Source: Vineibacter terrae (lineage in GTDB: Bacteria; Pseudomonadota; Alphaproteobacteria; Reyranellales; Reyranellaceae). From it: a stretch of DNA of 64,000 bases. Where the stretch lies: NCBI RefSeq assembly GCF_008039615.1, contig NZ_VDUZ01000011.1, positions 1-64,000 of the forward strand, read 5' to 3'. The position numbers were made by a program, and so were the translations under genes. Shown here piece by piece: positions 3,181 through 22,073 of this stretch; position 1 is the stretch's first letter; each line of letters opens with the position of its first letter. The notes beneath the pieces are model-generated. The model saw only the letters and a list, made by a program, of their open reading frames with translations. It ran no database searches and had not been told where the DNA came from.

Positions 3181-4983
3181 TCAGTTCGGCAACGCGAACA
3201 CTGTCAGGGCGCCGCCAAGCTGGGTGTACTGCGACAGCGCCTTGTAGGCGCCGACGGCGCCGAGGCCTTCGGTCTCGCCCGTCAACCCCGCGGCCATGCC
3301 GATGCCGGCCCAGCCGCCGATGCCCGACAGCACGGCGACATACTGCTTGCCGCCATGCGTGAAGGTGTTGACGTTGCCGATGATCCCGGACGGGGTCTTG
3401 AACCGGTACAGCTCCTTGCCGGTATCGGCATCGACCGCCTTGAGGTAGCCCTCCAGCGTGCCGTAGAACACCACGCCGCCGGCGGTGGCGAGCGCGCCGC
3501 TCCACACCGAGAACGGCTCGGGGATCGACCACTTGATCTTGCCCGTCGTGGCATCCCAGGCAATGAAGTTGCCGAGGTTGGTCTTGCCTTCCGGCGGGAA
3601 CATGCTCAGCGTCGCGCCGACATAGGGCTGGCCGGCCGTATAGGCGACCTTGAACGGCTCGTAGTCCATGCAGACATGGTTGGTCGGCACGTAGAACAAG
3701 CCTGTCTTGGGCGAGAACGCGGCCGGCTGCTGGTCCTTGCTGCCCAGCGCCGCCGGGCAGATGCCCTTGGTGTTGACGTCCTGGCCGGATGCCTCGGTCG
3801 AGTATTTCTTGACGCGCTCGGGCAGGCCGGTCTTGAGGTCGACCTTCGTGGCCCAGTTGACCGCGGGGTCGAACTTCTCGGCGACAAGAAGCTCGCCGGT
3901 GGCGCGATCGAGCGTGTAGCCGAAGCCGTTGCGGTCGAAATGGACCAGCAGCTTGCGATCCTGGCCGCCGATCTTCTGGTTGGCCAAGATCATCTCGTTG
4001 ACGCCGTCATAATCCCATTCGTCGTGCGGCGTCATCTGGTAGACCCACTTCGCCATGCCGGTGTCGGCATCGCGCGCGAAGATCGTCATCGACCACTTGT
4101 TGTCGCCGGGACGCTGGACCGGGTTCCAGGTGCTGGGATTGCCGGTGCCGTAGTAGACGAGGTTGAGCTCCGGATCATACGAGATCCAGCCCCACGTGGT
4201 GCCGCCGCCGATCTTCCACTGATCGCCTTGCCAGGTCGCGGTGCCGGAGTCCTTGCCCACCGGCTTGCCCAGCGCTGTGGTCTTCTGCGGGTCCATCAAG
4301 GTGTCTGAGTCGGGCCCCATCGACCAGCCGACCCAGGCCGGCTTGCCCGTCTTGATGTCGTAGGCCGTGACCTTGCCGCGCACCCCGAACTCGCCGCCGC
4401 TGTTGCCGATCAGGACCTTGCCCTTCACGACCAGCGGCGCCGACGTGCCCGTCTCGCCCGCGCTTGGATCACCGTCCTTGACCGACCATTCGACCTTGCC
4501 GGTCTTGGCGTCGAGGGCGACCAGGGTTGTGTCGGCCTGGTGCAGGAAGATCTTGCCTTCGCCGTAGGCGACGCCGCGGTTGACGGTGTCGCAGCACATC
4601 ACCGGGATGACGTTGGGATCCTGCTTGGGCTCGTATTTCCAGACGATCTGCCCGCCGTTCTTCAGGTCGAGCGCGAAGACCGTGTTGGGGAACGGCGCGT
4701 GGACATACATCATGTCGCCGATCACCAGGGGGCCGCCTTCGTGGCCGCGCAGGACGCCGGTGGAGAACGTCCAGGCGACCTGCAGGTTCTTGACGTTGGT
4801 CTTGTTGATCTGCTCGAGCGCGCTGTAGCGCGTGTTGGCGTAGTCGCCGGCCGGCATGACCCACTGGTTCGGGTCCTTGGCAAGCTTCATCAGGTCATCG
4901 TTGGCGAAGACAACGGCCGGTTGCGACGTCAGGGCAACAGCCAGGGCACAAGCAGACACCGAAACGCATAGCTGTCTGGGCAT
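3181..4983 (-). CDS. xoxF: PQQ- and lanthanide-dependent methanol dehydrogenase XoxF
   Basis: A 600-residue periplasmic quinoprotein oxidising methanol (and probably other short alcohols or formaldehyde) with pyrroloquinoline quinone. A signal peptide covers about 1-28. The eight-bladed propeller shows the vicinal disulfide VMCCD (Cys130-Cys131) over the cofactor, GTTWGW, and [11 protein letters not shown]. In the last, Asp324 is the catalytic base and Asp326, two residues on, is the extra metal ligand that marks lanthanide-dependent enzymes; calcium-type MxaF has Ala there. GGGAGGAGAGG precedes the ATG at 4983; an upstream in-frame ATG at 5061 has no such site. It follows pqqA by 108 bp and is followed by xoxG and xoxJ. 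No small subunit gene (mxaI) is present. Confidence 0.96.
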
Positions 4984-5041
4984 TGCCTCTCCTCCCATTG
5001 GTTGGTCGTGAGCTGCTGCGGGTTCAACCCGAAATGCGATC

Positions 5042-5079
5042 GCACCTGTCTCGGCGTGCACGCCGCCATCGACAGGCGC
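5042..5079 (-). promoter_or_regulatory. Intercistronic stem-loop between pqqA and xoxF
   Basis: On the minus-strand transcript, arms at 5071-5079 and 5042-5050 (GCGCCTGTC against GACAGGTGC, with one G-U pair) enclose a second hairpin GGCG-TGCA-CGCC at 5053-5064. There is no T-run, so it is not a classical terminator. Its position directly after the pqqA stop suggests partial termination, RNA processing or protection that would make pqqA message more abundant than xoxF message. Confidence 0.45.
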
Positions 5080-5091
5080 TTTGCGGCTCGA

Positions 5092-5172
5092 TCAGAACCC
5101 GGCGCAGGCGTAAGCGTTGATCTCGAGGCCTACTGCGATTTCCTCGATCCTCGGCTTTCTCCATGTTTTCAT
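5092..5172 (-). CDS. pqqA: PqqA, ribosomal precursor peptide of pyrroloquinoline quinone
   Basis: A 26-residue open frame found by reading the gap upstream of xoxF. It begins MKTWRKPRIEEIAVG and ends EINAYACAGF. The conserved pair Glu17 and Tyr21 (E-I-N-A-Y), the two side chains that PqqE, PqqF and PqqC turn into PQQ, is present, with the usual lysine/tryptophan-rich start and short hydrophobic tail. GAGGAG lies seven bases before the ATG. It is the first gene of the minus-strand xoxFGJ set. No pqqB, C, D or E lies in this window, so the other enzymes must be encoded elsewhere, and this could be a second pqqA copy tied to methanol dehydrogenase expression. Confidence 0.93.
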   Translation of the reverse strand: MKTWRKPRIEEIAVGLEINAYACAGF

Positions 5173-5192
5173 CGGAGTCTCCTCAGGGCCCG

Positions 5193-5210
5193 GTTGCACG
5201 CGCGCGCAAC
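5193..5210. promoter_or_regulatory. Short inverted repeat upstream of pqqA
   Basis: GTTGC and GCAAC frame an alternating pyrimidine-purine core (18 bp in all), 20 bp upstream of the pqqA start codon. It could be an operator or a small leader hairpin for the pqqA-xox transcript. I see no convincing -35/-10 pair beside it; a TATAGG-like hexamer sits further upstream near 5262-5267. Confidence 0.25.
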
Positions 5211-5306
5211 GGCCTGCGCCATGATGCCCGTTCCGTCAGCTAGTTGAATTCTACTTTGGGCCTATATCGAGCAGGCGCGGTGCAATCGCGACTGCGCCCG
5301 AAGCGA

Positions 5307-5765
5307 CTAGTCGCTCGCCGCGCCGGCGCGGCACAATGGCAGCGCCGGATGGGGGCCAAGCCTGGTCAGGCTCTCTGACAGACCGCGGACATTGGGCGCC
5401 GTGGCGCGCAGCCACCAGTACTGCACGTCGTAGGCTTCGCGCTCGCGCGCCATCCAGGTTGCGCAGGTGATCGGCGTCGGGCTGGCGCCGCCGGCCTGCT
5501 GCAGGAAATGTGTCAGCTCGTGCACGAGGATGCTGGTGGCCGCGGCATCGACACCGACCTCGAGGCGCATGTCGAGCAGGATCTCTCCGCCCGTGGTGGT
5601 GAAGGCGAGGACCGGGCAGGGGCGCTGGCAGGCGCGTTGATCGAGCACCGCATGCGTCACGAAGCGCACGGTCGGCGGCTCACCGGGAATGGCGTATCCG
5701 GTGTAGCCGGCTATGGTCACGAGGAGCGACGCCACGAGCTGCGCCAGGGCTTGCGCGCCAATCAT
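5307..5765 (-). CDS. Hypothetical exported protein with HExxH putative zinc site
   Basis: A 152-residue protein that I cannot place in a named family. A hydrophobic N-terminus (about 1-28) suggests export. HELTHFLQ (His82, Glu83, His86) is a zincin-type motif preceded by a predicted strand and hydrophobic residues, and Glu108/Glu110 in AREREAY could supply a third ligand, the layout of small gluzincin-like peptidases. Four cysteines (46, 50, 101 and about 145) could form disulfides in the periplasm. It is encoded 134 bp upstream of pqqA on the same strand and diverges from the next gene, which suggests a link to methanol dehydrogenase maturation. That link is inference only. Confidence 0.65.
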   Translation of the reverse strand: MIGAQALAQLVASLLVTIAGYTGYAIPGEPPTVRFVTHAVLDQRACQRPCPVLAFTTTGGEILLDMRLEVGVDAAATSILVHELTHFLQQAGGASPTPITCATWMAREREAYDVQYWWLRATAPNVRGLSESLTRLGPHPALPLCRAGAASD

Positions 5766-5833
5766 GATTGACCTCGCGATATCGGTCTGGTCTCATTAGC
5801 CGATCGAGCACAGTCTGACACGGTGGCATCAGT

Positions 5834-6178
5834 ATGATCGCGTACCGTTTCGCGCTGAGCCTGACGGCTCTGACGATCGTCCTTCCAGTCGGCAGCGCCC
5901 GGGCAGGCGACTACCCGACACCGGTCATCGTCGATTACGTGATCGGCTGCATGGCCAGCAACGGCGAGACGCAGGACATGCTGCGACGCTGCTCCTGCAG
6001 CATCGACGCGATTGCCTCGATCATCCCCTATGAAACCTACGAGCAGGCCGAAACGATCATGCGGATGCAGCAGACCATGGGGGCGCAGGCGACGCTGTTC
6101 CGCAACACCAAGGCGCTGAAGGTGAAGGTGGACGAGCTGCGGCTGGCGCAGGTCGAGGCCGACTTCCGCTGCTTCTGA
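5834..6178 (+). CDS. Small exported four-cysteine protein of unknown function
   Basis: A 114-residue protein not matched to any family I know. A signal peptide ending near VGSARA (about 1-24) is followed by a mature part with Cys39, Cys53, Cys55 and Cys113. The four cysteines would allow two disulfides and the CSC pair could also bind metal. It stands head to head with the HELTH protein gene and 107 bp before the beta-propeller gene, all between xoxF and the next housekeeping block, so a periplasmic accessory role in PQQ-dependent oxidation is likely but unproven. The ATG at 5834 has only a weak ribosome site. Confidence 0.6.
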   Translation: MIAYRFALSLTALTIVLPVGSARAGDYPTPVIVDYVIGCMASNGETQDMLRRCSCSIDAIASIIPYETYEQAETIMRMQQTMGAQATLFRNTKALKVKVDELRLAQVEADFRCF

Positions 6179-12493: not shown

Positions 12494-13900
12494 TCAGGGC
12501 GGCGACGGCCAGGGATGCTGCGCCGGTCGGCGCGCCTCATACCAGCGCGACAGCTGCAGCACGCCCAGGTCGTCGAAGCGGTGGCCCACGATCTGCAGGC
12601 CGATCGGCAGGCCGGCTTTGGTGTAGCCGCAATTGATCGAGGCAGCCGGCTGCTCGGACATGTTCCACAGCACGGTGAAGCCGACATGCTCCAGCGGCCG
12701 CGACGAGTCGTTGGTCGGGCAGGGCAGCTCGGCGGCGAAAGCCGGAATCGGCGCGGTCGGCGAGAGCACGTAGTCGTAAGGCGCGCAGGCGGCGGCAGCG
12801 AGCTTGCGCATCTCCATGACGCGGTTGAAGCCGCGGATCACGTCGACCGACGACAGCTGCAGCGCCTTGCGCGCCCAGCTGGCGATGAAGGGCAGGATCT
12901 TCACCCGTGTCTCGGGCGGCAGGCGCACGATGTCGTCCCAGGCCCGCGCGCGCCAGAAATTGTCCAGCCCGTCGAAGATCTCGCGTGCCAGGATCGGCTT
13001 CATGGCCGTCACCTTGGCGCCGGCCTTGGCGAACTGCTTCGCCGCCGCCTCGACGGCAGCCTGGATCTCGCCGTCCAGCGGCAGCCCGAAGCCGGCGTCG
13101 AGCTGCAGGCCGATCTTGAGGCCTTTGACGTCGCGCTCGAGCTTCGTCCACGCGATCCTGGCCGGCGGCAGGCTCATATGGTCGCGGGCGTCGGGCTGCG
13201 ACAGCACGCTCATCAGCAGCGCCGCATCCTGCACCGTGCGCGTCATCGGGCCGGCGACGCGGCCGACATAGGGCGGGTCGATCGGGATGCGCCCCAGCGA
13301 GGGCTTCAGGCCGAAAATACCGCACCAGCCGGCCGGCAGGCGCACCGACCCGCCGATATCCGTGCCGATATGCAACGGGCCATAGCCGGCTGCCGCCGCG
13401 GCGCCGGCGCCGGAGCTGGAGCCGCCGGGGTTCTTCGACAGGTCCCACGGGTTGCGCGTGAGCGGATGGAAGCTCGAGAGGCCCGACGACAGCATGCCGT
13501 AGTCCGGCATCGTAGTCTTGGCCAGGATGATGGCCCCGGCCTCGCGCACGCGCGCCGTCGGCGGCGCGTCTGCGGCGGCAGGGACCAGCGTCGTGGCCGC
13601 CGTGCCCAGCGGCACCGGCACGCCCTTGCTGGCGATGTTCTCCTTGATGGTGATGGGCACGCCGTCGAGCGCGCCGGCCGGCTTGCCTTTCTTCCACCGC
13701 GCTGCCGATGCCTTGGCCGCTCGCCGCGCGCCCTCGAAATCAGCTGCGTAGAGGGCCTTCAGCGCCGGTTCCCAGGCGTTGATATGGGCAATCACGTCGT
13801 CGACGACGTCGACGGGCGACAATTTCTTCGACTTGTAGGCTTTGAGCAGGTCGAGGGCGGTCAGGTCGTGCGGTGCGGGCATCTGTCGCTGCGATGGCAT
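12494..13900 (-). CDS. Amidase (amidase signature family)
   Basis: A 468-residue amide hydrolase. The Ser-cisSer-Lys triad is visible: Lys86 in VPITIKENIASKG, Ser161 in NPGGSSSGAGAA and Ser185 in IGTDIGGSVRLPAG. Spacing between the two serines (24 residues) is the family norm. No partner of a GatCAB complex is nearby, so it is probably a catabolic amidase or aryl-acylamidase rather than the tRNA amidotransferase. It is followed at 15 bp by the ThDP enzyme. Whether translation starts at 13900 or at the later in-frame Met (MPAPHDL) is unclear. Confidence 0.9.
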   Translation of the reverse strand: MPSQRQMPAPHDLTALDLLKAYKSKKLSPVDVVDDVIAHINAWEPALKALYAADFEGARRAAKASAARWKKGKPAGALDGVPITIKENIASKGVPVPLGTAATTLVPAAADAPPTARVREAGAIILAKTTMPDYGMLSSGLSSFHPLTRNPWDLSKNPGGSSSGAGAAAAAGYGPLHIGTDIGGSVRLPAGWCGIFGLKPSLGRIPIDPPYVGRVAGPMTRTVQDAALLMSVLSQPDARDHMSLPPARIAWTKLERDVKGLKIGLQLDAGFGLPLDGEIQAAVEAAAKQFAKAGAKVTAMKPILAREIFDGLDNFWRARAWDDIVRLPPETRVKILPFIASWARKALQLSSVDVIRGFNRVMEMRKLAAAACAPYDYVLSPTAPIPAFAAELPCPTNDSSRPLEHVGFTVLWNMSEQPAASINCGYTKAGLPIGLQIVGHRFDDLGVLQLSRWYEARRPAQHPWPSPP

Positions 13901-16653: not shown

Positions 16654-17472
16654 ATGCAGAGCGCGATGCTTGAAGATCTCACATGGGTCGAGGCCAAGGC
16701 GGCCATCGACGCCGGCATGCCGGTGGTGATCCCGATCGGTGCGGGCGCCGAGGCGCACGGCCCGCATCTGCCGTTGCGCACCGACGCCACCATCGCGGCG
16801 GGATTGGCGCGGCGGGTCGCCGAGCGCGTGCCCGTCCTGGTCGCGCCCCTGGTGCCGTTCGGCCACGACCCGGCGTTCGTTCGTTTTGCCGGCAGCCAGA
16901 GCCTCTCGGCTGCCACCTTCGCCGCCCTCATGCGCGAGCTCTGCGCCGGCTTCGTGGCCCAGGGGGCCTCACGCATCGCGCTTCTCAATACAGGCCGCTC
17001 GAGCGAGGCGCCGATCAACGCGGTCCTGGGCGAGCTGCATGCCGCCGGCACCGCGCGGGTCGTGGCCGCCCATCTGAGCTTCCTGGGGTGTGCCGCCGAC
17101 TCGTGGCTCGGCGATCGTGACCGCGGCCATGCCGGCGAGGGTGAGACCTCGATGATGCTGGCTCTGGACAGCCGCGCCGTTCGGCTGGACCGGCTGCCCG
17201 ATCGTGTCGCCAATCGCGATGCCGGCGTCAGGGCCATGCCGCCGGGGCTGGCGCGTCCCGCCGTCCTGTCATGGTCGCCGGGCCTGGGGGACGCCGACGA
17301 GTTCAGTCCCACCGGGGCGTTCGGCGATGCCACGCGTGCCACGGCCTACAAGGGCCAGAAGGTGCTGGAGGCGATCGTCGACGATATCGTGGCCGGCTTG
17401 CGGCACGCCTTCGCCGCCGCGCCCGGCTTCGCACCGCCGGCCGCCGGCGGCGATCAGTCGGCGGCGCGGTAG
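16654..17472 (+). CDS. Creatininase-family hydrolase
   Basis: A 272-residue member of the creatinine amidohydrolase superfamily. GAGAEAHGPHLPLRTD supplies the metal ligands Glu33, His35 and Asp44, and HAGEGETSMML carries the second-site glutamate. The family includes creatininase, formamide hydrolases and the mycofactocin protease MftE; the substrate here is unknown, and no mycofactocin genes are present. A GTG at 16630 would add eight residues; the ATG at 16654 aligns better. It follows the M61-like gene by 50 bp. Its 3' end overlaps the end of the convergent response regulator gene by 19 bp. Confidence 0.85.
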   Translation: MQSAMLEDLTWVEAKAAIDAGMPVVIPIGAGAEAHGPHLPLRTDATIAAGLARRVAERVPVLVAPLVPFGHDPAFVRFAGSQSLSAATFAALMRELCAGFVAQGASRIALLNTGRSSEAPINAVLGELHAAGTARVVAAHLSFLGCAADSWLGDRDRGHAGEGETSMMLALDSRAVRLDRLPDRVANRDAGVRAMPPGLARPAVLSWSPGLGDADEFSPTGAFGDATRATAYKGQKVLEAIVDDIVAGLRHAFAAAPGFAPPAAGGDQSAAR

Positions 17473-17840
17473 CGTTCGACCAGCGCCAGGGCCTCGACGA
17501 TCCGGCGCAGGGACAGCGGCTTCCAGAGGACCGACAACGCGCCCTCGGCCGTGGCGCGCTCGACGTCGCCGTCGTCGGACTGGCCCGTCATGAGCAGGGT
17601 GGTCGGCCGTGGCGGCCGTGTCCGGTTGCAGGCCCGCAGGACATCCAGTCCGCTGCCCTGCGGCATCTTCATGTCGGTCAGCACGACATCGAAGGGCGGG
17701 GCGGTGTCCAGCGTGCGCGCGGCTTCCTCGACGCTGCCGGCTGGTACCGGCTCGTGGCCGCGGCGGCGCAGGAAGTCGCAGACCTCGTCGACAATGCAGG
17801 ACTCGTCGTCGACGATCAGGATGCGCATGGCAGCGCTCAT
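17454..17840 (-). CDS. Single-domain response regulator (CheY-like)
   Basis: A 128-residue receiver domain with no output domain. The acidic pair is Asp11/Asp12 in LIVDDES, the phosphorylation site is Asp56 in LTDMKMP, and Thr85 and Lys107 (LWKPLS) complete the active site. It is the second gene of a two-receiver operon, 10 bp after the other receiver, and lies near a histidine kinase without its own receiver; the kinase probably phosphorylates one or both. The alternative start at 17828 (MRILIVDD) cannot be excluded. The 3' end overlaps the creatininase gene tail to tail. Confidence 0.9.
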   Translation of the reverse strand: MSAAMRILIVDDESCIVDEVCDFLRRRGHEPVPAGSVEEAARTLDTAPPFDVVLTDMKMPQGSGLDVLRACNRTRPPRPTTLLMTGQSDDGDVERATAEGALSVLWKPLSLRRIVEALALVERYRAAD

Positions 17841-17850
17841 GGCCGGCGGG

Positions 17851-18243
17851 TCAGCCGTTGCCGGCAGCTCGAACGGGGCTCGACACGACACGCTCGACAA
17901 AGCTCGCGAGCATCTTCAGCGGCACTGGCTTGTGGATGACCGCGAACGCGCCGGAATGCTGCACGTTGGCGGCGCGCACCATCTCGCTGTCGCCCGACAT
18001 CAGGATGATCTTGGTCGGGGTCCCGTGGGCCGTGGCCGTCTGTGTCATCCGGATGCCGTTGACCTCCGGCATGGAGATATCGGAAATCACCACCCGCGGC
18101 ATGCGGGTCTCCATGATGTGGAGAGCGCTGGCGGCATCATTGGCTTCCACGACATCGAATCCGCGCCGGTGAAGATACTCGGCGATCTCCAGGCATTGTG
18201 AAGGGTCGTCGTCAACGACAAGGACGTCCGGCCGTGATGTCAT
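17851..18243 (-). CDS. Single-domain response regulator (CheY-like)
   Basis: A 130-residue receiver domain. VLVVDDDPSQ holds the acidic cluster, Asp55 in VISDISMPEVNG is the phosphoacceptor, Ser83 in ILMSGDS takes the Thr/Ser switch position and Lys105 (IHKPVPLK) the conserved lysine. There is no DNA-binding or enzymatic domain, so output must come from protein contact. It is the first gene of a pair, divergent from the PAS histidine kinase across a 366 bp AT-rich gap, the usual layout for a shared regulatory unit. Confidence 0.92.
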   Translation of the reverse strand: MTSRPDVLVVDDDPSQCLEIAEYLHRRGFDVVEANDAASALHIMETRMPRVVISDISMPEVNGIRMTQTATAHGTPTKIILMSGDSEMVRAANVQHSGAFAVIHKPVPLKMLASFVERVVSSPVRAAGNG

Positions 18244-18609
18244 GATAATATGACTCCTACCCGCCCAATACGTGCATGGCGGCGAAAAAAATCAATGAAT
18301 TCTATCGTATGCATCTATAATATGAAGTCACCTGTCAGATCAATCGGCTCCATATTGGATTGGTCGGCAACCGGAAGTATATATTTACACTGTATGTGTA
18401 TTTTCTTTCTGATTAGATGTTATGTATGTGGACAAAACGGTATTGAAAACAAGGTCATTACATCGCGCTCTTGCGAGCGGCGCCGCGCGGCCCGCGGCTG
18501 GATCGGTTGACGCTAGGACAAAGGGTATGGCCGCAAGTGTCTGGTACGCCCTGGCTGATCGGATTGCTTCCGGCGGGCTGATGCCGGTGGTGATGGGAGG
18601 CTAGGTCTC
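18244..18609. other. AT-rich divergent intergenic region between receiver genes and histidine kinase
   Basis: The first 240 bases are strikingly AT-rich for this genome (runs such as GAAAAAAATCAATGAATTC and TATATATTTACACTG), while both flanks return to normal GC. No open frame here has the codon bias of the surrounding genes. A 25-codon frame (18528-18604) ends six bases before the kinase start and could be a leader peptide, but nothing else supports it. The region must hold the promoters of both transcription units; the low GC suggests a nucleoid-protein binding site or a piece of foreign DNA. GGGAGG at 18595-18600 is the ribosome site of the kinase. Confidence 0.6.
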
Positions 18610-20802
18610 ATGTCGACCTACACCGGCCTGGACCTGATCCGCCGACGGCTGCCTTCGGTGCGGCGCCTGCGCAGCATCGGCCGCAGCTTGTTCATCGCCT
18701 TCGCCGTCGTGTGCGGCATCGCCGGGCTGCTGGCAGCCGCAGGCCACCTGCCGACTGTTCCCGTCGAGGCGACCACGACCTACGTCGCGGTCCTGCTGTC
18801 GATCTCCATCGCCTGTCTGCTGGTGATGCTGTGGTGGAGCGATCGCCAGGGGCATCGCATGACCGAGCGCGTGATCGAGATCGAAAAGGCGCGCCGCTGG
18901 TCGGACCGGCGGCTGTCGGAGATCATCGAGGCGTCCTCCGAGGGTATTGTCGTCTACGACGCCAACGATCGCCTCGTGCTGTGCAACGCCAAGTTCCGCG
19001 ACACGCTGACCGCGAACGGCGGCGCCCTGCGCTATGGGGCGCTCTACGAGGACAATCTGCGCCAGAGCATGCGGTTGGGGGTGTACACCGGTATTGAGGA
19101 TCCCGACGCCTGGATCGCCCGGCGCAAGGCATCGCTGCGCAAGCCCGGTGTGATCGAGTCCGTGCGCCTGGCAAACGGGACATGGCTGCGCATCTCCAAC
19201 CAGGTCCTGTCGGACGGCAGCGTCGTGGGCATGCGCACCGATGTGACCGACCTCAAGCATCGCGAGCTCGAGCTGGCCAATCGCGAAGCGCGGCTCAGCC
19301 GGTTGTTTGGCTCGCTGGCCGACGTCGTTCTCGAGCTGTCGGCCAACGGCGTGATCACGCAGGCGAGCCCGGCCGCACGGCAGCTGCTGGGGTTCGAGGC
19401 GGCCGATCTGGAAGGCATGCGCCTGGACGATCTGTTCCCAGCCGAGAACCGCGCGCAGCTCAACGAGCTGCGGCGGCGCCTGCACGAAGGGGCCGTGCAG
19501 TCGGAAGCGGTCATCCTCTACACCAAGCCGACCGGCGAGACGATCCACGCCGAGGTCCGTCTTTGGCTTTCCGACCGCTCGACCGGCGAGCAGATCGTCA
19601 CGGGAACGATCCGCGACGTCGACGATCGCGAGAAGGCCGCGGCGCTGGCCCAGCGCGAGGCGGCGCTGGTCAGCGCCATCGCCAATGCGTCCGGCGCCTA
19701 CATGCTGGTGCTCGACAACACTGGCCAGCTCGTCCGTGCCAACGCCGCGTTCGAGGACCTCATCGGCATGGACAACAGCCAGATGAGCGGCAGCCTGCTG
19801 TCGGCCAACCGCAAGACGCGGTCGCTGGCGGCGATCGTCGAGCCGGCGATCCGCGACGGCGGCGTCGAGGATTTTCCGTTCGAGTTCGACGTTGCCCTGG
19901 CCGACCGCCGGGATGCCAAGCACACCGTCAGGTTCGCGGCCAACGCCGTGCCCGAGGCCAACGGCAGCCTGCGCTATGCCGTGCTGGTCGGCATCGACGA
20001 CACGGCGCGCCGCAACGCCGAGACGGCGCTTTTCGAGGCGTCGAAGCTGTCGAAGCTGGGCCAGATGGCCGCGGCGATGGCGCACGAGCTGAACCAGCCG
20101 CTGGCCGTGATCCGCATGGCGGCCGAGAATGCGATCGACGAGCTCGAGCTGGAGCCGCTGCAGGACGCCGGCATGGCCGATTTCCTGCAGTCGAAGCTGA
20201 AGCGCATCGCCGATCAGACCGACCGCGCCTCCAAGGTCATCAACCAGCTGCGCGCGCACGCCCGCAAGGGCGACGACCATCCGGCGCCGTTCGACGTGCC
20301 GGAGGCGGTGCAAAGCGCGCTGGACCTGGTGGGCGAGCAGCTCAAGCTCGACGGTGTGCAGATCGCGGTCAGCAGCCAGCCCTGCCCGCAGGCGCTCGGA
20401 CACCGCTCGCGCTTCGAGCAGGTCGTCATCAACCTCATGACCAACGCGCGCGATGCCATCAAGATGACGCCGCCGGAGCAGCGTGACCACCAGCCCGGCC
20501 GGATCGAGGTGACCATCCTCGCCAGCGAGGACAGGAAGCGAGTTCACATGTCGGTTCGCGACAACGGGCCCGGGATCCCCGAGCACGCGCTCGATCGGCT
20601 GTTCGAGCCGTTCTTCACCACCAAGCCCAAGGGACAGGGCACCGGGCTGGGCCTCTCGATCTGCCACGGCATCGTCGCCGAGATGTCGGGCACCATGTCG
20701 GCGCGCAATCATCCCGACGGCGGGGCCATGTTCGAGATCGACCTGCCGGCATCGGCGGGCCGGCTGTCGGTGAACGAGCGCCAGGTGGCGCCGGCGGCCT
20801 GA
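18610..20802 (+). CDS. Membrane-bound sensor histidine kinase with three PAS domains
   Basis: A 730-residue inner-membrane kinase. Two transmembrane helices (about 26-46 and 58-76) leave only a very short periplasmic loop, so sensing is probably intramembrane or cytosolic. Three PAS-like units follow (about 105-225, 230-345 and 348-465); the first begins [22 protein letters not shown]. The H-box is [12 protein letters not shown] with His492, then N-box [11 protein letters not shown]1 DNGPGIP, F-box FEPFFTTK and G2 GTGLGLSI. There is no receiver domain, consistent with the divergent single-domain receivers being partners. The ligand is unknown. Confidence 0.93.
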
Positions 20803-20816
20803 GGGACGCGCCGCCG

Positions 20817-22073
20817 CTATCGGCCCTCCGGCCTCTGCAGCTGCCAGCACTGGATGAGGCCGACATTGCGGCCGTCGACCGGGTCGATCGGCTTGAAGCC
20901 TTTGCGGCTCTCGCCCGAAAGCGCCTGGTAGAAGCTGTTGCTCACCAGCACGTCGCTGGGGCCTGCCGCCGCCATCAGCCGTGCCGTCATGTTGAGCGCA
21001 TCGCCGATGAAGCCGTGATGCGCCGTGGAGAAGGCCCGCAGCGGCATGAGGCTCACATCGCCCATGGCGATGCCGATATGGACGCCACGCGATTTCTGCA
21101 CCCGGTCGATGCGGCTCTGCCAATGCTCGGAGACCGAGTTGCCGATGTCGATCAGCCGGCGGGCGCAGCGCAGCGCGTCGTCGGCGTACCCTGGCCGACG
21201 GTCGGGGAACCCGAACAGACCGATGGCCTCATCGCCGACGAACTTGTCCAGCATGCCGCCGGTCTCGACGATGGCCTGGCGCGCCTGCGAATAGAAGGCG
21301 GTCAGCGACTGGCGCACCAGGGCCTCATCGCGAGTGTCGCGCACGTAGCTGGAAAAAGCGCAGATATCGGCCATGACCACGGCCACGCCGCGGTAGATGC
21401 CGGCGCGCAGGACATCCTGCGGGCCGCGATCGCGTCCCAGCCGCCGCAGGCTCCAGGAGCTGAAATGCCACAGCAGCGTCGGCGCCAGGTAGTCGTCGGC
21501 GCCGGCGAACGCGGCGCGCCATTCGGCCCGCACGATCGAGTCACGGATGGCGCGGATGTTGCCGCGGCTGAGCGCTGCGATATGCAGGCCGAACGACTCC
21601 TCGATGCGGCGGCACACCTCGGCCTCGCCCCAGATCTCGACCGCCAGAGTCGGGCACAGGCGCTGGCGCAGCGCGGCATCCAGCACCGTGCGCGCCGCGC
21701 CGTCGGCGTGATCGGTGACCACCACCAGCCGCTGGCATTTCCGGTCGGGGTTGGTCGCATACTTTCGCGCCAGGCGCTCGACGGTCTCGTCGGCGTCGTA
21801 CCCCCATTTGACCTCGACGAAATAAGGGGCCTGGGCCGCCGGCGCGACGCGGATGTCAGCGAACAAGCCAGGTGATCCCAGCCGCACCTCCCGGATCGTC
21901 TCGACGCTTTCAGGCGTCAGCCCGTCGCGCTCGACATGGTGGACGCGCACCAGCTCGCAGCAGATCTCCTCGAGGAACAGCCGCAGCTCGCCGGCGCTGG
22001 CTGGCGCGGAAGCGTCGGGTACGGGCGGCGCGGCAACCGCCCGCGCCGGCGGTGCTCCATGCTTGACGGACAT
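20817..22073 (-). CDS. Class III nucleotide cyclase fused to an Mrr-like nuclease-fold domain
   Basis: A 418-residue cytosolic protein. The C-terminal part (about 228-400) is a class III adenylate/guanylate cyclase domain: Asp236 in VVMADICAFSSY and Asp281 in DKFVGDEAIGLFG are the two metal ligands, and FIGDALNMTARLM carries the Asn-Arg transition-state pair. The N-terminal part (about 30-160) has the layout of a PD-(D/E)xK restriction-endonuclease fold: a helix with Glu35/Glu36, Asp73 in LFADIRV, then Glu87-Val-Lys89 in YFVEVKWGY, followed by a hydrophobic strand LVVVTDH and LAVEIWGEAEVCRRI. The two domains are joined by a helical linker. It lies tail to tail with the kinase gene (14 bp gap). 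Confidence 0.85.
   Translation of the reverse strand: MSVKHGAPPARAVAAPPVPDASAPASAGELRLFLEEICCELVRVHHVERDGLTPESVETIREVRLGSPGLFADIRVAPAAQAPYFVEVKWGYDADETVERLARKYATNPDRKCQRLVVVTDHADGAARTVLDAALRQRLCPTLAVEIWGEAEVCRRIEESFGLHIAALSRGNIRAIRDSIVRAEWRAAFAGADDYLAPTLLWHFSSWSLRRLGRDRGPQDVLRAGIYRGVAVVMADICAFSSYVRDTRDEALVRQSLTAFYSQARQAIVETGGMLDKFVGDEAIGLFGFPDRRPGYADDALRCARRLIDIGNSVSEHWQSRIDRVQKSRGVHIGIAMGDVSLMPLRAFSTAHHGFIGDALNMTARLMAAAGPSDVLVSNSFYQALSGESRKGFKPIDPVDGRNVGLIQCWQLQRPEGR

Follow-up and report, generated by a model that had tools for sequence, protein, structure and literature searches.

Restriction-endonuclease (REase) folds and cyclic nucleotide synthesis have already been found in a single polypeptide. 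The nearest described case is that of the vWA-MoxR (VMAP ternary) conflict systems, for which the available text of Kaur et al. (2020; PMC7159879) gives a "NaeI REase domain" and a cNMP cyclase, both as effectors carried by the vWA component in a system of several genes. A combination of these two domain types has in this sense been published, and what we rate as new at the locus described here is a putative class III cyclase of the receptor type whose input domain is new. Among the best matches listed from the open-licence literature, no report of a stand-alone nuclease-fold/cyclase fusion was found nearer than Kaur et al., and the accessible portions of PMC8195603 and PMC4886424 name no such fusion. 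Two further families bear comparison: the Pycsar cyclases, which have the class III cyclase core in common with the present protein as far as the excerpted text of PMC11224242 goes, and pPIWI_RE_REase (PF18154), for which the excerpt of PMC3702460 describes a DinG helicase and pPIWI as partners.

The gene is located on the minus strand at 20817..22073 of the window, i.e. the whole stretch of 64,000 nt of Vineibacter terrae DNA that was analysed; its ATG lies at 22073, its stop codon ends at 20817 and, like all features given below for it, its parts lie on that strand. According to an AlphaFold2 model of the full-length 418-aa protein (pLDDT 83.6, pTM 0.82), the product is composed of four parts. 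A leader (residues 1-27; 21993..22073), predicted to be disordered (pLDDT <50 for residues 1-25) and poorly conserved in the alignment, is followed by a predicted PD-(D/E)XK (restriction-endonuclease) fold domain (residues 28-165; 21579..21992), a helical linker (residues 166-224; 21402..21578) and a class III nucleotidyl cyclase catalytic domain (residues 225-412; 20838..21401). The linker, in which the model places helices at 170-189, 194-203 and 206-215, carries a conserved LLWHF motif with an L-x-W-H core whose L200, W202 and H203 are invariant in the 18 aligned members. Like the vWA-MoxR systems as excerpted, the locus thus unites a REase-fold domain and a cNMP cyclase domain in one polypeptide but, unlike them, it does so in a 418-aa protein without vWA: Pfam gave no vWA match in the window protein, whose two folded parts are accounted for as nuclease fold and cyclase, and no match to NaeI models in this protein or in 12 members of the family. 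No MoxR or VMAP gene turned up in the four window neighbours scanned or in the 25 families, out of 56, that were listed for 68 neighbour ORFs.

Residues 28-165 are confidently predicted to adopt the PD-(D/E)XK restriction-endonuclease fold, and D73 and E87-x-K89 fall where this fold would have them. Modelled alone (AlphaFold2, 14 sequences), these residues reached a pLDDT of 92.8 and a pTM of 0.88, and the predicted order a-b-b-b-a-b-a-b-a contains the abbbab core topology of the fold. In the full-length model, D73 (21855..21857), the candidate metal-binding Asp, falls on the second strand (71-78), E87 of the E87-V88-K89 motif (21807..21815) on the third (84-88) with K89 just past it, and K104 (21762..21764) in the helix that follows, while E35-E36 (21966..21971) belong to the first helix. 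The top VIA-align row was AF1548 (1y88; Z 11.2, rmsd 3.2 A, 118 aligned), with further rows for the BspD6I small subunit (Z 9.0), Cdn1 (Z 8.9), Can2 (Z 8.8) and Card1 (Z 8.1), and VC1899 also near the top; by the tool's own warning a Z of 7-8 can reflect a common arrangement, and 19/997 chains reach Z 8. The top Foldseek matches in the PDB were SfsA (E 3.8e-4, the sole one below 0.001), SPO1766, NucS, EndoMS, EcoT38I and Can2, and its viral matches include an Mrr-domain protein (E 1.5e-3) and an MmcB-like protein (5.6e-3). The window domain has the fold in common with AF1548, BspD6I, SfsA (4dap), NucS/EndoMS, Can2, Card1 and Cdn1, but these entries carry no cyclase in their titles and are 7-14% identical to it in the rows quoted.

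Pfam gave no match for residues 28-165 of the window copy. Across 12 members, weak matches below threshold were obtained to pPIWI_RE_REase in 4/12 (best E 0.014) and to PDDEXK_10 in 1/12 (0.021), four further weak families being probably due to chance, and PADLOC weakly matched pPIWI_RE_REase in 3/12 (best E 0.0033). The DinG helicase and pPIWI given as partners of this family in the excerpted source were not seen with the fusion family. A search for PF18154 itself found it in 0/289 alphaproteobacteria and not in the window genome at E<=0.001, a result that is uninformative about absence as 14 controls were also silent. A PDB sequence profile of the N-terminal part had an acyl carrier protein as its best match (E 0.042), which was taken as chance. 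The initial annotation had described this part as an Mrr-like nuclease fold with a D73 ... E87-x-K89 pattern: the fold is borne out by the AlphaFold2 model and by the Foldseek and VIA-align matches, the pattern is found on the expected strands, and "Mrr-like" holds at the level of the fold and fails at that of the family, no Mrr sequence model having matched the window protein or any of the 12 members in Pfam scans at E<=10.

Conservation was assessed on 18 full-length members, the window copy included, from Reyranellaceae, other Alphaproteobacteria, Myxococcota and the phylum of a Lentisphaerae MAG. Locus L050, which runs off its contig, the broken L067, a remnant in genome G003 and L011-L015 (the same genes as L040-L044) were left out, and L051 was kept though its start is unsure, no in-frame ATG, GTG or TTG being found before the first helix. 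E35, E36, D73, E87, K104 and W148 are identical in 18/18 members and K89 in 17/18. Across residues 39-165, seven of the 127 columns are invariant, D73, E87 and K104 among them, and 17 reach 17/18; the chance that three given columns all fall in the latter set is ca. 0.002, a value that ignores the relatedness of the sequences. Part of the family was found by a contig scan with the peptides YFVEVKW and RLFLEEIC, which in part predetermines the conservation of residues 31-38, and these residues were not counted; E35-E36, inside the second peptide, are also kept in the five members found by profile. Residues 73, 87 and 89 are free of this bias in L045-L052, which lack YFVEVKW, and in the profile-found L060, L062, L063, L065 and L066. 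The variability of E87 or K89 among orthologues that had been named beforehand as a ground for rejection was not borne out, E87 being identical in 18/18 and K89 in 17/18. The single exception at K89 is the Asn of the distant member L066, in which the cyclase Asp, Asn and Arg all remain. Outside Reyranellaceae, identity to the window copy over the nuclease domain is 37-44%, and dN/dS (Nei-Gojobori) of this domain is 0.07-0.32 in 9/9 close pairs, some of which share a sequence so that not all are independent. Purifying selection thus acts on the nuclease domain.

The C-terminal part was initially annotated as an apparently intact class III cyclase, and this call is upheld. Residues 227-391 match PF00211 (Guanylate_cyc; E 1.3e-6, 28.5 bits for a curated cut-off of 21.9), NCBIfam gave the cyclase part only a sub-threshold match (TIGR03903), and VIA-align of the full-length model yielded Z 22.1 to CyaB (3r5g) and 21.2 to CyaC (1wc1). 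The metal Asp residues D236 (21366..21368) and D281 (in K277 to D281, 21231..21245) are identical in 18/18, as is R365, and N361 is found in 17/18 (Lys in L051); we take N361 and R365 (20979..20993) to be the transition-state pair of class III cyclases. The catalytic fold, the Asp pair and the Asn/Arg pair are common to CyaB, CyaC and the fusion family which, unlike them, has a nuclease fold as its input domain, G or S where CyaC has T, and K or Q at the Lys position.

These last two positions are those that select the base, adenylate cyclases pairing Lys with Asp or Thr and guanylate cyclases Glu with Cys. In the fusion family, residue 277 and residue 354 (21012..21014; G in 17/18, S once), the latter opposite the Thr of CyaC in a phmmer alignment, occur as K with G in 6/18 members, Q with G in 11/18 and Q with S in 1/18. 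None of these fits either pattern, and failing the adenylate rule leaves ATP possible as substrate. Nine paralogue cyclases of the same genome have K with T (6), R with S (2) or R with D (1). To judge from the alignment, position 277 switches cleanly between K (the six Reyranellaceae) and Q (the remaining 12 members), and a different product could go with it. The base-selecting pair is unusual.

Both domains are present in all 18 aligned members. Trees built on each of them recover the same three groups with strong support, namely a Reyranella trio, a second-genus trio and six Myxococcales; the trees do not resolve the deepest forks, differ in how the trios branch and disagree on L045, which groups with the Myxococcales in the cyclase and full-length trees but not in that of the nuclease domain. 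When 385 alphaproteobacterial genomes were searched with a profile of the cyclase alone (E<=1e-25), three strong matches were obtained, all with the nuclease domain. One far weaker match (L071 1459-2148 in genome G666, E 1.9e-29) is a stand-alone 229-aa cyclase without the nuclease domain, and has FVRET where the fusion family has Y/F-V-R-D-T. Free-standing relatives of the nuclease domain were not found at E<=0.001 in the 385 alphaproteobacteria, in an order of 18 genomes or in two phyla of 240 and 329 genomes, at most 8-13 candidates per genome being scored in the 385-, 240- and 329-genome sets. As far as comparison of sequences goes, the two domains have been kept together, which says nothing on what they do.

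The same fusion recurs in other genomes. Among the matches listed for 146 genomes searched as relatives, a set that includes the own genome, six covered both domains: those of the window's genome, of two others of its genus and of three of another Reyranellaceae genus. A peptide scan of genome contigs gave 13 loci, of which five were Reyranellaceae already known and the other eight came from a deltaproteobacterial MAG (Myxococcota according to the tree tool), five Myxococcales MAGs, one Lentisphaerae MAG and one further alphaproteobacterium; both domains occur in the 12 loci not cut by a contig end, L050 leaving its contig inside the cyclase. Profile searches found the fusion in 3/385 alphaproteobacterial genomes (own included; two already known, L060 new), in 7/18 genomes of one order (five already known, L062 and L063 new), in 4/240 genomes of the phylum of the Lentisphaerae MAG (one already known, L065, L066 and the broken L067 new) and in 1/329 genomes of the phylum of L045, namely its own. 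A single copy was counted in each of the eight genomes examined for copy number. Members of the family are thus few but scattered over a wide range of bacteria, with one copy per genome wherever copy number was counted.

In G003, a fourth member of the window's genus, only a C-terminal remnant was detected, a 60-residue open frame (L018 1501-1683) in the syntenic place between a histidine kinase and an OmpA-like gene and with no match to the N-terminal profile, which points to loss of the gene within the genus. L067 (1215-2031 in genome G921) is without the core of both domains and has the cyclase end in another frame, as a result of either decay or an assembly error. Such remnant or broken copies in G003 and G921 indicate that the gene is dispensable in places. 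A pattern scan of viral contigs found no copies and, on plasmids, there was neither a match to the N-terminal domain at E<=0.1 nor any place covering 80% of the whole protein. Phages, searched with the cyclase domain only, gave two records of one Pelagibacter phage; in HTVC008M (KC465899.1), the gene at 13229-13747, annotated as adenylate/guanylyl cyclase, is 19% identical to the cyclase domain.

Neighbours differ between groups. In the window, a CBS-domain gene of the same strand precedes the cyclase gene with a gap of 72 bp, and the latter converges with a PAS-histidine kinase, beyond which are two response-regulator ORFs; over 17454-20802, these two ORFs overlap each other on the minus strand and the kinase is on the plus strand. 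The CBS protein and the kinase recur in L040, L041 has the kinase but two other upstream genes, and the kinase adjoins the G003 remnant. Elsewhere, our own assignments from ORF sequences place an enolase-like gene upstream in L043, FolB in L049 and a type VI secretion gene in L048. The start codon of the L043 cyclase overlaps the end of the ORF (4835-5977) resembling an enolase-superfamily gene, an arrangement which suggests that the two form one operon in the second genus. The wider neighbour set of 68 ORFs from 12 loci was picked by a crude GC3 rule and surely includes some that are not genes; in the loci read, with 25 of 56 families listed, no neighbour is common to different groups, and the families listed look metabolic or structural rather than defensive. 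PADLOC matched mad3 in 3/68 of these ORFs and mad2, AriA and mad8 in one each, the mad3, AriA and mad8 matches being ABC-transporter-like ORFs of L042 and L044, and the L040 orthologues of three window neighbours had no PADLOC match. The link to defence proposed in the initial annotation is not sustained, there being no partner common to the groups, no effector among the neighbours scanned and only unspecific matches to Pycsar models (see below).

The reading that we put forward, tentatively and as the likeliest of those considered, is that of a soluble, single-chain, receptor-type class III cyclase whose input is a PD-(D/E)XK fold with a preserved candidate active site, binding and perhaps cutting a phosphodiester ligand. 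Both folds, their residues and their joint conservation come from prediction and comparison. The combination of a preserved active-site set of the metal-dependent phosphodiesterase type, a position at which bacterial cyclases have their sensors and a helical linker suggests a cyclase gated by such a ligand. Two chains would pair through their cyclase halves, as we infer because each chain carries the two metal Asp residues together with the Asn/Arg pair, the arrangement of homodimeric cyclases. Metal would then be bound by the nuclease-fold domains along with a phosphodiester ligand, for which the ends of nucleic acids or some specific structure in them are the likeliest candidates and which might also be cleaved; binding would be relayed through the linker (166-224) and alter the activity of the cyclase. 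Receptors encoded elsewhere in the genome, in which nine PF00027 cNMP-binding domains were counted, could sense the cyclic mononucleotide in trans.

Nucleic acid is here the natural guess for the ligand. The stronger version, in which a catalytically competent REase fold is the receptor and bound or cut nucleic acid (ends, damage, foreign DNA or RNA) directly switches 3',5'-cNMP synthesis in one protein without partner genes, is possible if doubtful. To our knowledge, no case has been described in which nucleic acid directly gates the classical synthesis of 3',5'-cyclic mononucleotides, and the occurrence across several phyla of a one-gene, 418-aa protein that retains a candidate nuclease active site next to a cyclase makes such gating testable with one purified protein. 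Several findings count against the receptor reading: the nuclease domain is net acidic in 16/18 members (-1 to -9; one is 0 and one +1), which disfavours nucleic-acid binding, K89 is Asn in L066, the base-selecting residues are a misfit, N361 is replaced by Lys in L051, and the gene is dispensable in places, as the G003 and G921 copies show. In the window copy, though, the linker is basic.

Acidity and the L066 Asn are also what speaks for a degenerate nuclease fold that would act as a sensor by binding a small molecule, a nucleotide or a protein instead of nucleic acid, as does the lack of a nucleic-acid-processing partner common to the groups in the loci read. We regard this alternative, of which a ligand-binding form had been raised in the initial annotation, as rather unlikely: it is weakened by the six charged candidate residues (E35, E36, D73, E87, K89 and K104), which are invariant or nearly so, such near-complete invariance of a whole candidate active site being needless in a pocket without metal chemistry.

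The same preserved set (D73, E87, K89, K104) would be expected if the nuclease were instead the active output and the cyclase half an NTP- or product-sensing regulator, in a self-contained abortive-infection-like enzyme; moreover, Cdn1, Can2 and Card1, recovered by VIA-align as given above, are nucleases crystallised with cyclic oligoadenylate. This arrangement is unlikely in our view. It is K89 that has been lost once while the cyclase residues stay, and outside the genus it is the cyclase half that is better conserved (46-65% identity to the window, versus 37-55% for the nuclease part), as expected for an output; the metabolic or structural look of the neighbour families listed (25 of 56) does not favour it either.

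A Pycsar-like antiphage cyclase that would make cUMP or cCMP and sense phages through its nuclease fold is more improbable still. PADLOC PycC models do match the window protein (E 3.6e-8) and 12/12 members (best 3.8e-12), and VIA-align gave Z 19.8 to BcPycC (7r65). The same models, however, match more strongly (best E 2.9e-33 to 2.6e-15) each of nine other cyclases of the own genome, which to judge from their other parts are probably ordinary ones; these were nine of its 19 other cyclase matches, taken as stop-to-stop frames of which two are cut at the locus end and one is open at the start. BcPycC stands at row 31 among the 50 VIA-align rows listed, below entries that are adenylate or guanylate cyclases by title. 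No PycTM or PycTIR effector was found among the four window neighbours by Pfam or in the PADLOC matches of the 68 neighbour ORFs from 12 loci, so that the fusion family, unlike the Pycsar cyclases in the excerpt of PMC11224242, has no effector seen beside it. Since the PycC matches are unspecific and no effector was seen next to the gene, the data do not support membership in Pycsar, and this reading was set aside. In that excerpt, the second residue ahead of the first metal Asp is F in both EaPycC and AnPycC (PMC11224242). The fusion family has M, I or L there. An F at this position is common in ordinary cyclases too, so that it gives no clear separation from Pycsar.

Least probable of all is a bifunctional enzyme whose PD-(D/E)XK site would break down the cyclic nucleotide produced by the adjoining cyclase: two candidate active sites in one chain, one of them in a metal-dependent phosphodiesterase fold, and the analogy of GGDEF-EAL proteins, which make and hydrolyse c-di-GMP in one chain, would allow it, but no PD-(D/E)XK enzyme with 3',5'-cNMP as its substrate is known to us.

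Finally, the own genome contains two very similar receiver-domain cyclases (L004 and L005), the receiver parts of which match the PADLOC model SduA (E 1e-9 and 6e-9) in what looks like a false positive.
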